The position numbers were made by a program, and so were the translations under genes. Positions 9,625 through 16,704 of a stretch of DNA of 31,170 nt are shown piece after piece (position 1 is the stretch's first letter; each line of letters opens with the position of its first letter). The notes under the pieces are model-generated. The model ran no database searches. It saw only the letters and a program-made list of their open reading frames with translations, and was not told the DNA's origin. The stretch spans positions 1 to 31,170 of IMG/VR virus record IMGVR_UViG_3300042298_002449; one strand, given 5' to 3'. The DNA is from a virus.

Positions 9625-9857
9625 AGCCCACCGCGCTGGCCAAACACGTTCGCGTCCTGCGGCAGCACGCCGAGACCATCGCGGCACGGTGCAAAGCCAT
9701 TGAGGACGCGATGCTGCGCGGCGAGATGTGGGGGCTGCCGATTCCGGAGGGCAAGATTGAGCGGCAGGTGCGGGACATTGAGACGAGACTACTGGACGCT
9801 GCGACGATGATCGGCGTTCGCTACGAAGGCAAACACCAACACAAGGGGGAGACATGA
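9621..9857 (+). CDS. Small helical early protein
   Basis: Product of 78 residues, ATGA overlaps at both ends. It is almost entirely helical and charged (KPTALAKHVRVLRQHAETIA, then RQVRDIETRLLDAATMIGVR), with a Pro/Gly break in the middle (GLPIPEGK), suggesting a helical hairpin. The end is basic (YEGKHQHKGET). I recognise no domain; it could be a nucleic-acid or protein partner of its neighbours. Confidence 0.6.
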   Translation: MKPTALAKHVRVLRQHAETIAARCKAIEDAMLRGEMWGLPIPEGKIERQVRDIETRLLDAATMIGVRYEGKHQHKGET

Positions 9858-10555
9858 GCAGCACACTGACGCACGAAGAGGAACAGCAGATTGCGGACTG
9901 GCTTGCCGAGCACCCGACGTTGACGCAAGGAGTTGGCACGGAGGAAGCGGCGTGCAGTGTCGCTGCGTGGAATCTCGCGTTGACAGGCACGTTGACCGAC
10001 AAGATTCCTGACTGCGCCAGCGAAGTGATTGGTCGGTGGATCATTGCCGTGCAGGACAATTGCCCACCGGAGCACGGTCGGGGGCACCCCGAGTGGCTGC
10101 GGCTATTGCCGCTGGCGGCTGGGACGGGGCGAGCGCACGAAGCCGAGCGGCTGGCGATTGTGCTGGACTGGATGTGGCGCACCGTGTTGCCGTTTTTGCA
10201 GACAATTGCGGATCAAGAGGGTTTTGGGAAGCAGTGGAAGGTGATGTGCGAAAACCGCACGAGGTATGCGGCGGATGCGGCGAGTGCGGCGGGGTATGCG
10301 GCGGCGAATGCGGCGTATGCGGCGGGGTATGCGGCGCATGCGGCGGCGAATGCGGCGTATGCGGCGGCGGATGCGGCGTATGCGGCGGCGGATGCGGCGT
10401 ATGCGGCGAGGTATGCGGCGGATGCGGCGAGGTATGCGGCGTATGCGGCGAGGTATGCGGCGTATGCGGCGGGACCAGACGTGTGGGCTACGTTTGCGCC
10501 AATCGAGGTGCTGCGGAAGCTGATCGCGGTCACTGATGCGAGGGCGGTCGCATGA
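9854..10555 (+). CDS. Protein with alanine-rich heptad-repeat tail
   Basis: Product of 233 residues. The first 137 residues are a normal globular region (LTHEEEQQIADWLAEHPTLT, then VGRWIIAVQDNCPPEHG, then LDWMWRTVLPFLQTIADQ). Residues 138-206 are a tandem heptad repeat of the form A-Y-A-A-x-(Y/N/D)-A, with variable positions Gly, Arg, Asp, Asn or His; the DNA is a 21-base-period repeat of 'gcggcgtatgcg' units at about 10265-10475. The sequence ends with a unique stretch (VWATFAPIEVLRKLIAV...). Spacing of aromatic and small residues every 3 and 4 positions predicts a long helix able to pack as an Ala-rich coil. Function is unknown; similar Ala-rich helices occur in diverse bacterial proteins. 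Confidence 0.7.
   Translation: MSSTLTHEEEQQIADWLAEHPTLTQGVGTEEAACSVAAWNLALTGTLTDKIPDCASEVIGRWIIAVQDNCPPEHGRGHPEWLRLLPLAAGTGRAHEAERLAIVLDWMWRTVLPFLQTIADQEGFGKQWKVMCENRTRYAADAASAAGYAAANAAYAAGYAAHAAANAAYAAADAAYAAADAAYAARYAADAARYAAYAARYAAYAAGPDVWATFAPIEVLRKLIAVTDARAVA
10265..10475 (+). repeat. 21-bp-period minisatellite (Ala-heptad coding)
   Basis: The region is built of near-identical units 'gcggcgtatgcg', 'gcggcggatgcg', 'gcgaggtatgcg' that alternate in 9- and 12-base steps, giving a 21-base overall period. All units stay in frame with the gene at 9854-10555. The same segment reads as Arg- and Gly/Cys-rich repeats in the other two forward frames, which are by-products. Copy number is likely to vary between related genomes by slippage. 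Confidence 0.85.
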
Positions 10556-10973: not shown

Positions 10974-11392
10974 CGGCACATCGAGCGCCGCGCGGCGGCG
11001 ACGCGGCCCGCGTGCGTCGGGCGACCATTCGGCATGCGGTCGCGGCGGGCATCGTGGCGCATCCCGGCGCGACGGTGCGGACGCTCGCGCGGGCGCTGCA
11101 TCTGGAGGATCTGAGCGTGAGGAAGGCGCTGGAGCACTGGCGCGACCGCGGATTTACGCGGAGCGTGCGCGTGACCGACTCAAAAGGCGTGGCGTGCCTG
11201 TGGTTTGCCGAGAACGAGCTGGTGGCGCTCGTGCAGTCGGGCGCGATTCAATCGCTCACGGCGCTCGAGGTGGCCGACGGCGCGGCGTCGGCGCCGAATC
11301 CATGGGTGCATCCGTATCGCGTCGGGCGCACGGTCAGCACGAGACAGACGGTCCCGCTCGATTACGCGTCACCGTTGCGGGGGGCGGCGTGA
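10964..11392 (+). CDS. Winged-helix DNA-binding-like protein, paralogue 1 of 3
   Basis: Product of 142 residues from the ATG at 10964, overlapping the previous gene by 10 bases. Residues 15-75 fit a winged helix: RRATIRHAVAAGIVAHPGAT, then VRTLARALHLEDLSVRKALE, then WRDRGFTRSVRV. It shares this 'P-G-x(3)-x-x-L-A-x-x-L' arrangement with the next two genes, and with the third a 'W-V-H-P-(Y/I)-R' motif. It ends DYASPLRGAA, like the next product (DYGSPFARGAA). All three genes are therefore tandem duplicates that have diverged. A transcription regulator or origin-binding role is possible. The last codons carry the ribosome site and GTG start of the next gene. Confidence 0.65.
   Translation: MGVAAHRAPRGGDAARVRRATIRHAVAAGIVAHPGATVRTLARALHLEDLSVRKALEHWRDRGFTRSVRVTDSKGVACLWFAENELVALVQSGAIQSLTALEVADGAASAPNPWVHPYRVGRTVSTRQTVPLDYASPLRGAA
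11379..11392 (+). promoter_or_regulatory. Recurrent stop/start junction (copy 1)
   Basis: GGGGGGCGGCGTGA contains a G-run as ribosome site, a GTG start (11389) and the TGA stop (11390) of the upstream gene. It also encodes the last residues Arg-Gly-Ala-Ala. The same 14-mer is found at 11816 and 12319, and in a 13-base form at 12948. Confidence 0.6.
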
Positions 11393-11829
11393 GATCCTAC
11401 CGCGTGAGCCAACAGTGGCCAGCCGTGGCGTCGCGGGCCGTGGTGCCCTACCACGTGTTCCGGCATCGTGTGCTAGACGGGTGGGACGCGCTGAAGGCGG
11501 CGACGACGCCGGCGCGATCCTACACCAGCATCGCCGACCGCGTGCGCGAGCTCGTGACCGACACGCCAGGCATCACCACGGCCGACCTCGCGGCGCGGCT
11601 TGGCGTCACGCCGTTGCAGGTCTACTACGCCGTGGCGCGGGAGTGCCGTGAGGGGCGCATGACGCGCACGCTCGTGGCCAAGGGCGCCAAGGGCGAGCGG
11701 CCGACGTACGCCGTGACGATGGCCGCCGTGGTCGCCGTAGCGCCGGTGGTGGTGGCGCCGCCGGTCGTGTTGATGCGACGGGCGCCGATGATCGACTACG
11801 GGTCGCCGTTTGCGCGGGGGGCGGCGTGA
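11389..11829 (+). CDS. Winged-helix DNA-binding-like protein, paralogue 2 of 3
   Basis: Product of 146 residues from the GTG at 11389, coupled to the previous stop (GTGA). The winged-helix core is at about 45-105: SIADRVRELVTDTPGITTAD, then LAARLGVTPLQVYYAVAREC, then REGRMTRTLV, with 'E-R-P-T-Y-A-V' as a wing strand. A hydrophobic Val/Ala/Pro linker (VVAVAPVVVAPPVVLM) separates it from the conserved tail DYGSPFARGAA. The linker looks long and greasy but has two prolines in the middle and is probably extended rather than membrane-spanning. Its relation to the flanking paralogues is clear from the core and the tail. Confidence 0.65.
   Translation: MRSYRVSQQWPAVASRAVVPYHVFRHRVLDGWDALKAATTPARSYTSIADRVRELVTDTPGITTADLAARLGVTPLQVYYAVARECREGRMTRTLVAKGAKGERPTYAVTMAAVVAVAPVVVAPPVVLMRRAPMIDYGSPFARGAA
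11816..11829 (+). promoter_or_regulatory. Recurrent stop/start junction (copy 2)
   Basis: The 14-mer GGGGGGCGGCGTGA again joins two genes: the G-run precedes a GTG start at 11826 by 4 bases, and TGA ends the upstream gene at 11829. Confidence 0.6.
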
Positions 11830-13472: not shown

Positions 13473-13924
13473 TGACGGAGACGACCACACGGCGCAGCGT
13501 GGCGGCATGGATTGACGACGCGCACTACGCCCTCACGGAATGGGCTGAGGGTCGGGCGCCGTCCCTGTCCGTGGACACGCTCCGGGCGCTGGCGGCGACG
13601 CCACACCGGCCGATCCGATCGCCGTCCGATCGACATACCTACTGGACTGAGGCCTATACGAGCATGATGAAGGAGCAGCTACGGGACGGCGTGCCGATCG
13701 ATGGCGGCGCCGACACCGTGGACGCCTGGCGCGCACGGCAGGACGCGCGGCAGTCGGCCATGGATGACCTCTTAGAGGCGCACGCCGAGTGTCTGCTGGC
13801 GGCGGCGCCGTTCGCGGTGGACGCTGGCCGAGGGGAAGGGGCGGATACGCCACGCCGGCGGCCCAAGAAGCGGCGCCGCACGTCGGCCGATGCGTACCTC
13901 GCGTCGGTCGGGGGTGAGCCATGA
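13472..13924 (+). CDS. Early protein upstream of the helicase, unknown function
   Basis: Product of 150 residues from the ATG at 13472 (TGATG overlap). An adjacent in-frame ATG at 13469 would add one Met; GGGGAG at 13462-13467 is better spaced for the second. The protein is mostly helical (TTTRRSVAAWIDDAHYALTE, then DDLLEAHAECLLAAAPFAVD) and ends with a strongly basic segment (RRRPKKRRRTSADAYLASV) that could bind DNA or act as a tether. Its stop overlaps the helicase start (ATGA). It might be a helicase loader or accessory protein, but this is only inferred from position. Confidence 0.6.
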   Translation: MTETTTRRSVAAWIDDAHYALTEWAEGRAPSLSVDTLRALAATPHRPIRSPSDRHTYWTEAYTSMMKEQLRDGVPIDGGADTVDAWRARQDARQSAMDDLLEAHAECLLAAAPFAVDAGRGEGADTPRRRPKKRRRTSADAYLASVGGEP

Positions 13925-15312
13925 GCGTCCGGCCCGCGTTGGCGCGCACCACCTACACGTTTACGGACACAGGCAACGCGCGGCGTCTAGTGGACACGCA
14001 TGGGCGAGATTTGCGGTGGGTCGCGCGGTGGAAAGCGTGGTACGTCTTTGATGGCCGCCGATGGGCCCGCGACGAGACGGGCGAGGTGGAACGGCGCGCC
14101 AAGTCTGTGGTGACGGATATGTTCCACCACGCCATGACGTTGGATGGAGAGAAGCGATCGGCGCTGGTGACGCATGCCTTGCGGTCGGAGGCGGCGGGGC
14201 GTCTTGAGGCCATGGTGAAGCTGGCCCGATCGGAACCGGGCGTCGCCATCAGCCACAGCATGCTCGACGAGCAGCCATGGGTGCTCACGTGCCGCAATGG
14301 GACGATCGACCTGCGCACGGGAAAGCTCGGCCCGCACAACCGAAGCGATCTGTCCACGAAAATGACCAATATTGACTACGACCCGGACGCCACCTGTCCG
14401 ACGTGGATCAAGACCCTTCGGGTGTTGTTCGCGGGCGACCAGAGCTTGATCGACTACGTGCAGCGGGCGATTGGGTACAGTTTGACGGGCGACACGCGCG
14501 AGCAGGTGCTTCACCTCTGCTACGGCACTGGGGCCAACGGGAAAAGCACGATGCTTGACGTGTTGGCGCAACTGAGCGACGAGTACGGCATGCAAGCCGA
14601 CTTCCAGACGTTCCTCGACGCCGGCAACCGATCAGGGCCGCGCAACGATGTGGCGCGCCTCGCCGGCGCACGGCTGGTGCGGTCGTCGGAGGTCGGCGAA
14701 AACAAAAAGCTGAACGAAGGGCTGATTAAGTCTCTGACCGGCGGCGACATCGTCTCGGCGCGGTTCCTGTACTCCGAGGACTTTGAGTTTAAGCCGCAAT
14801 TCAAGCTGTGGCTTGCGGCCAACCATAAGCCGGTGATCCGCGGGACCGACTATGCCATCTGGCGCCGCATGCGGCTGATCCCGTTTGAGGTCACCATCAG
14901 CCCGGAACAACGGGACGAAACGTTGCCAGCAACGCTCCGCGCGGAATTGCCGGGCATACTGGCGTGGGCCGTCTCGGGCTGCGTGGAGTGGCTCGCCGGC
15001 GGGCTCAGGCCGCCCGAAGTGGTACTGGCGGCTACCGACGCGTACCGGCACGAGTCGGACACGATCGGCGCCTTCCTGGATGAAGAGTGCGAGATCGGGG
15101 CGGGCTTTGAGATGTCGGCCGGACCCTTGTATCAGGCCTACACGCGCTGGGCCAAGGACAACGGCGAATATGCGATCACGGCCACGGCGTTCGGGCGCCG
15201 CTTGTCTGAACGGGGGCACGCGGTGGTGAAGCGGACGGGCCTCAAGTTTCGCGCGGGGTTGCGGGTGGTCACCGAGCGATCGGCACGGCCGGATTGGCGA
15301 GATGACTGGTGA
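13921..15312 (+). CDS. D5/P4-type SF3 DNA helicase (primase-helicase family)
   Basis: Product of 463 residues. Residues 10-160 match the D5_N-type region that precedes the helicase (WVARWKAWYVFDGRRWARDE, then PWVLTCRNGTIDLRTGKLGP, DYDPDATCPTWIKTL). The SF3 ATPase follows: Walker A GTGANGKST at 202-210, an acidic Walker-B-like stretch (RLVRSSEVGENKKLN, about 251-265), motif C around KLWLAANHKP (295-304, sensor Asn301), and arginines 315-316 in IWRRMRL. The C-terminal 70 residues hold a small helix-turn-helix-like region (YQAYTRWAKDNGEYAITATA). No archaeo-eukaryotic primase domain is present at the N-terminus, so the protein is probably a helicase only. It ends just before the iteron region, which is the likely site of its action. 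Confidence 0.9.
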   Translation: MSVRPALARTTYTFTDTGNARRLVDTHGRDLRWVARWKAWYVFDGRRWARDETGEVERRAKSVVTDMFHHAMTLDGEKRSALVTHALRSEAAGRLEAMVKLARSEPGVAISHSMLDEQPWVLTCRNGTIDLRTGKLGPHNRSDLSTKMTNIDYDPDATCPTWIKTLRVLFAGDQSLIDYVQRAIGYSLTGDTREQVLHLCYGTGANGKSTMLDVLAQLSDEYGMQADFQTFLDAGNRSGPRNDVARLAGARLVRSSEVGENKKLNEGLIKSLTGGDIVSARFLYSEDFEFKPQFKLWLAANHKPVIRGTDYAIWRRMRLIPFEVTISPEQRDETLPATLRAELPGILAWAVSGCVEWLAGGLRPPEVVLAATDAYRHESDTIGAFLDEECEIGAGFEMSAGPLYQAYTRWAKDNGEYAITATAFGRRLSERGHAVVKRTGLKFRAGLRVVTERSARPDWRDDW

Positions 15313-15341
15313 TGCTGTATGCCACCATGAGGCCTCAGGAA

Positions 15342-15368
15342 GGACGGTTGGGACAGTTAGGACGGTTC
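15342..15368 (+). repeat. Iterons, direct array (3 units)
   Basis: Three consecutive 9-bp units with consensus GGAC(G/A)GTT(N) on the plus strand, immediately left of the AT-rich core. Confidence 0.8.
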
Positions 15369-15422
15369 TCCCCACTCGTTAATACCTACATACACATGAG
15401 GGGCTTTTATGTATAACTATCC

Positions 15423-15440
15423 TAACTGTCCTAACTGTCC
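15423..15440 (-). repeat. Iterons, inverted array (2 units)
   Basis: Two identical units TAACTGTCC on the plus strand, that is GGACAGTTA on the minus strand, head to tail. They mirror the left array across the AT-rich core. Confidence 0.8.
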
Positions 15441-15495
15441 TGAAAAGAACAAACGACTAAGAAGCAAACAGACCGGTGGCGTAATAACTCCCCTT

Positions 15496-15508
15496 CGTGC
15501 TTCGCACG
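15496..15508 (+). terminator. Small hairpin before rusA, weak terminator candidate
   Basis: CGTGC-TTC-GCACG forms a 5-bp stem with a 3-base loop, with wobble pairs possible below it, followed by GGGCTTTCT. The stem is short and the T-run is broken, so termination is doubtful; it could also shield the next ribosome site. Confidence 0.25.
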
Positions 15509-15530
15509 GGCTTTCTCGTGGAGGGCGTCC

Positions 15531-16055
15531 ATGACCATGACACGGCGCAGGAGGGCAGTAGACGGCGCGAATGGTGGCGAAGAGGGGCAGAGGAAGGGGG
15601 CAACGAAAAAGCGCGCCAAATCGCCACGCAAAGCCCCGCGCGCCGACCCGTTGGCATGGTCAGAGGCGACGGCTACCCCACTCGGCAACGGCGGGTGGCG
15701 GTTTACGATGCCGGTGGTGACGTCTGCGAACCGGACATGGCGCACGGGAAAGGGTAGGACGTACAAGGCAAAGCAGGCCAACAGCGACACGAAGGCGGCG
15801 GCGCAGGCGTTTGCGCGGATCGTGCCTCTGGTCGGAGAGCTGTCGGTCTCGATCGTCTGGTATCGTGCGCAACGGTCAGGCGATGTGGATAATCGCATCA
15901 AGGGGACCCTCGACCTGCTCCGGAAGATTGCTTATCCCGACGATGCCAGTGTCGCGCGGGTAAGCTGCGAGCGGGTGGACGACGGGAGCCCGGCGCGGTT
16001 GGTGGTGGACGTGCAGCCGGCACACAGACGGCCCTGTCAGACGTTTTTAATATAG
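15531..16055 (+). CDS. rusA: RusA-type Holliday junction resolvase
   Basis: Product of 174 residues; GGAGGG lies 5 bases before the ATG at 15531 (a second ATG at 15537 is further from it). Residues 117-145 hold the RusA signature: GDVDNRIKGTLDLLRK with Asp118, Asp120 and Lys124, then AYPDDASVARVSCER with Asp138 as the third acidic metal ligand. RusA enzymes bind as dimers and cut four-way DNA junctions made during recombination and replication. The N-terminal 40 residues are an unusual basic extension (TRRRRAV, KKRAKSPRKAPRADP), which may add DNA affinity. A poly-G run follows the stop and may serve as the ribosome site of the next gene. Confidence 0.85.
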   Translation: MTMTRRRRAVDGANGGEEGQRKGATKKRAKSPRKAPRADPLAWSEATATPLGNGGWRFTMPVVTSANRTWRTGKGRTYKAKQANSDTKAAAQAFARIVPLVGELSVSIVWYRAQRSGDVDNRIKGTLDLLRKIAYPDDASVARVSCERVDDGSPARLVVDVQPAHRRPCQTFLI

Positions 16056-16065
16056 GGGGGGGGAG

Positions 16066-16704
16066 ATGGCACGACAGGTGATTGAAATACGACACTCGGC
16101 CGAGGTCACGGCGGCCCTGCGGAACATCGGACGCCAGGCGCCCTTCGCGCTGTCGCTGGCCCTCAACCGCACGGCGAACGAGGCGCAACGGGAGATCCGG
16201 CGCGGGCTGTCCGCGTTCACGCTGCGGCGCAAGGAGTTCATCGAGCGGACCATCTACCGCGGCGTCGGGGACAAGGCGACCAAGGCGTCGCCATTCGCTT
16301 CGGTGCGCGTGAATCCCGCGCGTGACGTGCTGGCCCAACACGAGGAGGGTGGGCAGAAGACGGCCAAGTTCGGCACCAACGTGGCCATCCCGTTGCCGGC
16401 GGTGCGGCAGCTGGCGGGCTCGCCGGTGATCCCCAAGCGGTTGCGCCCGCAAGGCTTACGGATGAACGAGAAGGTGCGAAAGGTGGTCACGCCGAACGGG
16501 ACGTTCCTCGTGAGGAATGTGGCTGGGAAAGGTCGAGGACGACTGAATGGGTGGCGAACAGACTTCCTGTACAGACTCAAACCATCTGTACCGCTCCGCC
16601 CTCGCCTCGGCTTTCATCGGTCGGCGATGAAGGCGATCAACGCGCATTGGTCGCGCTTGGCGTTCGAGGCCATCGACGAGGCGGTGACGACCGCGATGAA
16701 ATGA
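16066..16704 (+). CDS. Possible gpZ-like minor tail protein
   Basis: Product of 212 residues preceded by GGGGGGGGAG just before the ATG. Residues 18-65 (LRNIGRQAPFALSLALNRTA, then NEAQREIRRGLSAFTLRRKE, FIERTIYR) match my memory of lambda gpZ-type minor tail proteins: 'A-x-x-x-A-L-N-R-x-A' followed by an amphipathic helix and a 'R-x-x-(V/I)-x-(E/K)-R' segment. gpZ is needed for correct tail completion. The middle is basic and glycine-poor; the end (FHRSAMKAINAHWSRLAFEA) is helical. The location, between rusA and a free-standing HNH gene, well away from the tail block, is unusual. A DNA-binding role is the main alternative given the high Arg content. Confidence 0.45.
   Translation: MARQVIEIRHSAEVTAALRNIGRQAPFALSLALNRTANEAQREIRRGLSAFTLRRKEFIERTIYRGVGDKATKASPFASVRVNPARDVLAQHEEGGQKTAKFGTNVAIPLPAVRQLAGSPVIPKRLRPQGLRMNEKVRKVVTPNGTFLVRNVAGKGRGRLNGWRTDFLYRLKPSVPLRPRLGFHRSAMKAINAHWSRLAFEAIDEAVTTAMK

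Follow-up and report, generated by a model that had tools for sequence, protein, structure and literature searches.

The PICI origin consists of two iteron sets that flank an AT-rich region 3' of rep, and this rep-ori segment drives plasmid replication in E. coli, while deletion of ori lowers replication (PMC6092414). A 2018 survey of PICIs stated that such an organisation is unique to these elements among known replicons (PMC6092414). The SaPI Rep protein and the C-terminal domain of Cch2 likewise bind iterons located just 3' of their own genes, and the Cch2 site comprises short AAGTG repeats, three of them direct, with inverted repeats that are dispensable for binding (PMC7581432). The P4 alpha protein is an SF3 helicase with a C-terminal winged-helix DNA-binding domain (PMC4234260). 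A 2014 study of pRN1 described an essential stem-loop 3' of the replication gene for which no specific binding was seen, and the inverted structure of phage BIP-1 was read in the same study as an iteron-free stem-loop (PMC4234260).

The window analyzed here, a stretch of 31,170 nucleotides that spans positions 1 to 31,170 of IMG/VR virus record IMGVR_UViG_3300042298_002449, contains a segment (15341-15441) that is, in our judgement, very probably a phage replication origin recognized by the adjoining helicase. Its likeness to the SaPI/PICI Rep-ori pairs lies in the placement of the candidate origin directly behind the initiator gene (28 bp separate it from the stop codon), in the two iteron sets around an AT-rich region (three plus three facing units), and in a self-loading-type helicase with a C-terminal DNA-binding domain, which in the window is a D5_N/DUF5906/Pox_D5 protein with a predicted winged helix at residues 381-449. 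SaPI5 Rep is itself D5-type, and its structures (7ola/7om0) match the AlphaFold model of the window helicase over its length (Z 30.2, 388-391 residues, C-terminal domain included). This likeness covers the layout and the initiator rather than individual units, and the window differs from the SaPI/PICI pairs in having its array on a tailed phage instead of a satellite, a helicase that lacks a fused primase, 9-bp GGACRGTT units, and a central alternating pyrimidine-purine tract. The helper-dependent satellite trait of PICIs was not found here; the window encodes its own terminase large subunit (Pfam) and a minor-tail-like protein (PHROG), so it represents a phage that shares only the origin type with PICIs.

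Other described systems resemble the window in part. SCCmec Cch2 is also a D5_N helicase that stands alone and has iterons immediately behind its gene (the window helicase has 463 aa and no primase domain), but three direct repeats are found there, as opposed to three plus three inverted units in the window. The crr region 3' of P4 alpha contains 8-bp GGTGAACA units, so that P4 and the window have in common iterons in both orientations behind the helicase gene; however, P4 alpha carries a fused Toprim-type primase that the window helicase lacks, crr is duplicated and spread across ~300 bp where the window array is a compact 3+3, and P4 alpha is only a remote relative of the window helicase (27% identity across 49% of the query). 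In the pRN1 and BIP-1 loci, as in the window, an inverted structure of ~100 nt closely follows the gene for a helicase with a C-terminal winged helix, which there is a primase-SF3 helicase (PMC4234260). They were described without iterons, whereas the arms in the window and in the BPP-1-like locus L016, from a phage related to BIP-1, are built of repeated units. The BPP-1-type origin-like region (L016:5814-5917) has CATACGTGTACATG at its centre and TTTGCCTCG units arranged in tandem in each arm.

The putative origin of the window has the Rep-ori organisation already known from SaPIs/PICIs, SCCmec Cch2 and P4, now seen in tailed phages. Within the open-access literature searched, the breadth of this organisation among tailed phages and its central tract appear under-described. 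Examples may already exist in the origins of Streptococcus thermophilus phages, Sfi21 among them.

The iteron array and its gene neighbourhood

The features of the locus, with the basis for each call, are as follows.

13921 to 15312, + strand: stand-alone SF3 helicase, 463 aa, proposed initiator (Pfam, PHROG, AlphaFold model)
15061 to 15267, + strand: predicted C-terminal winged helix, residues 381-449 (model secondary structure; iteron covariation)
15181 to 15210, + strand: predicted recognition helix ATAFGRRLSE, residues 421-430 (model secondary structure)
15341 to 15349, + strand: iteron L1, AGGACGGTT (unit scan of the window)
15350 to 15358, + strand: iteron L2, GGGACAGTT (unit scan of the window)
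15359 to 15367, + strand: iteron L3, AGGACGGTT (unit scan of the window)
15368 to 15414, no strand: AT-rich core, 47 bp, proposed opening site
15387 to 15398, no strand: alternating pyrimidine-purine tract TACATACACATG, a 12-nt run across the dyad centre (15391)
15415 to 15423, - strand: iteron R1, AGGATAGTT, one mismatch (unit scan)
15424 to 15432, - strand: iteron R2, AGGACAGTT (unit scan)
15433 to 15441, - strand: iteron R3, AGGACAGTT (unit scan)
15494 to 15515, + strand: terminator-like hairpin TTCGTGCTTCGCACGGG followed by CTTTC (weak consensus match; counterpart hairpin in L004)
15531 to 16055, + strand: next gene, RusA-like Holliday junction resolvase (Pfam PF05866, E 4.9e-13)

The array is composed of six 9-bp units, three direct on the left and three inverted on the right, around the 47-bp core; the preliminary description had counted the direct units correctly and had listed two inverted ones, overlooking R1 with its one mismatch. 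The arms are 27 nt each, 85% complementary and separated by 47 nt, and both the 13-bp perfect inverted repeat (15351-15363 with 15428-15440) and the nested 6-bp inverted repeat TACATA/TATGTA (15387-15392 with 15408-15413) reported earlier are present. Positions 15368-15423 have an AT content of 59%, compared with 33% for the window. The array ends 89 bp before the RusA-like gene, and the hairpin at 15494-15515 probably terminates the helicase transcript.

The GGACRGTT motif occurs seven times in the window (1.68 expected), five times inside 99 bp and twice as isolated copies elsewhere, so that, apart from these two strays, the scattered copies that would have spoken against an origin are absent. 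When one mismatch was permitted, AGGACAGTT had 10 matches in the window compared with 2.0 expected, a number reached by 0 of 100 shuffles, and when comparable regions were shuffled with dinucleotides preserved, a tandem pair with an inverted tandem pair arose in 1 of 825 cases. A shift in cumulative GC skew had also been anticipated at the origin and was not seen, as the curve climbs through ~15.4 kb with its sign unchanged; this is weak and uninformative evidence, since nearly all genes in the window share one direction.

Pfam places D5_N at residues 20-169 of the helicase (E 1.2e-33), DUF5906 at 201-316 and Pox_D5 at 377-430, and the protein falls in PHROG DNA primase/helicase families. Its AlphaFold model (mean pLDDT 90.3) matches ASFV C962R and pox D5 structures in addition to SaPI5 Rep, and shows a two-strand wing (residues 435-449) after the recognition helix. 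Many relatives have a primase domain, whereas by Pfam this protein has none, and no primase was recognized by Pfam among the scanned genes of the window. Two further features of the window are noted in passing. The minor-tail or neck-like protein (PHROG 1924, 16066-16704) is encoded between the RusA and terminase genes, away from other structural genes. The protein encoded at 9854-10555 is rich in alanine, contains numerous short repeats of the YAA/AAxAA type and has no match in Pfam; the repetitive DNA there accounts for long frames in several reading frames.

In the closest relative, L004, the helicase is 97% identical to that of the window. The array is 88% identical between the two loci, with values of 89% for the left arm, 83% for the core and 96% for the right arm, while the 28-bp spacer that precedes it is 32% identical and the stretch that follows 51%. 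The array, whose loss from a relative that keeps the helicase had been named as a reason to abandon the origin reading, is therefore retained and, because it is conserved above its flanks, appears to be under selection.

Facing iterons and a central tract at other D5-helicase loci

A set of 165 D5-helicase loci with distinct C-termini was collected from IMG/VR, GTDB genomes, named phages and motif matches; for the GTDB genomes a single-protein search gave no match and an alignment search found the loci. An initial scan of 600 bp for repeats was dropped as too lax, as 327 of 495 shuffles scored at least 4 copies, and was superseded by a strict test that asked for a tandem pair at 8-12 bp spacing and an inverted tandem pair 15-130 bp off, with at most one mismatch in eight. 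At 56 of the 165 loci such an array was present in the 600 bp that follow the helicase, with the first unit a median of 36 bp from the helicase stop. The corresponding figures were 0/152 for upstream regions, 3/150 for regions further downstream, 3/165 for the interior of the helicase gene and 1/825 for shuffles. Among the named phages with such arrays are Acidithiobacillus phage AcaML1 (TCTGACGGG units), Mycobacterium phage Angelica (AGCACAGAT units) and a Bordetella BPP-1-like phage (TTTGCCTCG units). At many loci the unit numbers are unequal on the two sides and the spacings vary. About two thirds of the 165 loci gave no array by the strict test; among them, L019 has a looser array visible by eye, and L018 and L021 apparently have none 3' of the helicase, the polymerase gene of L021 overlapping the helicase stop and leaving no room for one.

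In IMG/VR, the GGACRGTT motif was also sought as exact 2+2 inverted copies separated by a gap of 20-50, which gave no match and was too strict. Contigs in which a lone direct GGACRGTT pair has no inverted counterpart were set aside as mostly due to chance; the DNA retrieved for nearly all of them contains no D5 helicase, and in the one contig that has such a helicase it lies 3.9 kb away.

The cores of these arrays tend to carry a long central alternating pyrimidine-purine run. In the window this run is 12 nt long, compared with 6.0 expected in the shuffled core (p 0.02). Across the 56 arrays the longest such run averages 10.1 nt, whereas 1883 control windows of equal length average 6.2 nt, and runs of at least 12 nt occur in 27% of array cores and 0.6% of controls; the excess persists without close relatives (29 loci, 9.2 vs 6.3, p 7e-5), and the mean position of the run is mid-core. 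Its sequence varies, some phages having ATATATATATA and others CGCGCGCGCGCG, and is mixed in the window, with ATATATAT as an example from AT-rich phages and CGCGCGCGCG from others, and it is retained whether the core centre is AT-rich or pure CGCG. Alternating pyrimidine-purine tracts are flexible and able to take non-B forms, and the tract may be the site at which the origin opens. A purine/pyrimidine asymmetry of the core halves was also found (left below right in 36 of 55, p 0.001), which is not clear in the window.

From these observations we tentatively suggest, at somewhat less than even confidence, that the facing-iteron origin is general in tailed phages with D5 helicases, that the pyrimidine-purine tract rather than AT-richness is what opens, and that the iteron is partly readable from the recognition helix and wing. 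Most sequenced phages lack a mapped origin. A compact origin right after the helicase gene would allow origins to be called in many phages from sequence alone, and would allow prediction of helicase-origin pairs and of origin sharing between phages and satellites. The retention of the alternating core even as pure CGCG also raises the question of how SF3 helicases open sites that are not AT-rich.

Which protein reads the units

The preliminary description had named two possible binders, the helicase and an upstream winged-helix protein. The unit sequence varies from locus to locus, so a site for a universal host protein is unlikely. Iteron similarity correlated with winged-helix identity when ATPase identity was controlled (56 loci, partial r 0.21, p 0.0005), and the same covariation was found at the 29 loci with ATPase identity below 60% (r 0.18, p 0.0065); ATPase identity, with the winged helix controlled, added no prediction of iteron similarity. 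The correlation is modest. Because the units follow the C-terminal winged helix of the helicase and not its ATPase, the helicase itself is the likely binder, and of the two possibilities left by the preliminary description the upstream proteins are now disfavoured.

Individual loci illustrate the relationship. The helicases of L005 and L006 are ~70% identical to that of the window, and both their units (ATGGGCGAT in L006) and their recognition helix (QMFGRRM) differ. The helicases of L008, L010 and L012, which were found through DNA motif search alone, are only 37-38% identical to the window helicase and have its unit and TAFGRRL in common with it. TA[F/W]GR was present in the recognition helix at 7 of 7 D5 loci with at least three GGACRGTT copies and at 4 of 155 others, these loci not being all independent and forming about four groups. 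A prediction made before a new motif scan, that further GGACRGTT arrays would be accompanied by a TAFGR helix, held for 3 of 6 D5 helicases (L188, L190 and the contig of L228, whose array is ~1.7 kb distant) and failed for L191, L235 and L262, which is far over the ~3% background and below what was predicted. This outcome makes the relation between helix and unit a tendency rather than a one-to-one code. Such a code equating TAFGR with GGACRGTT was rejected on the forward test and on L099, L149 and L176, which have TAFGR with other units or none detected.

Proposed origin function, competing readings and arrays beside other helicases

By analogy with the homologous SaPI Rep and Cch2, copies of the helicase would bind the 9-bp iterons via the C-terminal winged helix. 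Since the unit triplets face each other, the probable assembly would be a head-to-head pair of hexamers on either side of the core. The hexamers would open the core at its central flexible tract, load on the single strands and move apart to give two forks, so that replication would be bidirectional. Because the helicase has no primase domain, primers would come from the host or from some other phage protein.

The reading that fares best among the alternatives, although we regard it as improbable, is that the origin acts by extrusion of its arms as a stem-loop (cruciform) and not by iteron recognition. The 85% complementarity of the arms in the window fits this proposal, as do the essential pRN1 stem-loop, for which specific binding was not seen, and the similar drawing of BIP-1 (PMC4234260). 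However, the arms consist of repeated 9-bp units, the BPP-1-like phage has tandem units in both of its arms, many loci have unequal unit numbers per side and differing spacings, and the covariation of the units with the winged helix is not predicted by pairing alone.

Slightly less probable still is a model in which the array is bound by an upstream winged-helix protein or a host factor, with the helicase only recruited. The protein encoded at 11194-11829 is one such candidate, with a weak HTH_24-like match (E 0.018), and GGACRGTT arrays in contigs where the neighbouring helicase is AAA_25, DUF927 or VapE-like would be consistent with a binder other than a D5 helicase. Against this stand the differences in iterons among phages, which vary with the helicase's own winged helix, and the finding that the Cch2 C-terminal domain alone binds its iterons (PMC7581432).

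It is very unlikely that the repeats serve instead in regulation, partition or packaging, or as a transcription terminator. The array is intergenic, its two flanking genes are on the same strand and a terminator-like hairpin lies downstream at 15494, all of which could be expected of such a site. Yet no promoter-like site was found within 15250-15650 and no Rfam family at the array, the arms lack a T-run, the position 3' of an initiator helicase recurs across distant phages, and the layout agrees with that of functional PICI origins (PMC6092414). Chance repeats in a GC-rich genome have a negligible probability, for although short repeats are common and the lax scan matched many controls, this explanation is refuted by the motif excess, by the strict scan and by how well L004 conserves the array.

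A candidate origin served by the adjacent SF3 helicase, as first proposed in the preliminary description, is therefore the best reading of the array, given its conservation in L004 and the same layout behind 56 of 165 D5 helicases. Weighing against it are the GC skew, which does not switch, the roughly two thirds of D5 loci that fail the strict test, the occurrence of GGACRGTT near helicases of other types and the imperfect match between helix and unit.

The 9-bp motif, described earlier as unfamiliar, recurs beside other helicases, including non-D5 families. GGACRGTT arrays of similar layout neighbour AAA_25 helicases in L193 (1622-1865) and L238 (4247-4314), a DUF927 helicase in L205 (5673-5987) and a VapE-like helicase in L202 (1160-1324). 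The L193 array overlaps the 3' end of the gene, where it encodes GTVGTVGTV. In L013 (5051-5229) an inverted AGGACAGTT array is located 5', not 3', of a prim-pol/PriCT_2/DUF5906 replication gene. The helicases at these loci may read the unit through a similarly specific winged helix, or the arrays may have arisen by convergence. Finally, L216 (3614-3707) contains an array with a long alternating tract, CATGTGTGTGCGTGCGC, after a 632-aa gene that has no Pfam match and possibly encodes an undescribed replication protein.
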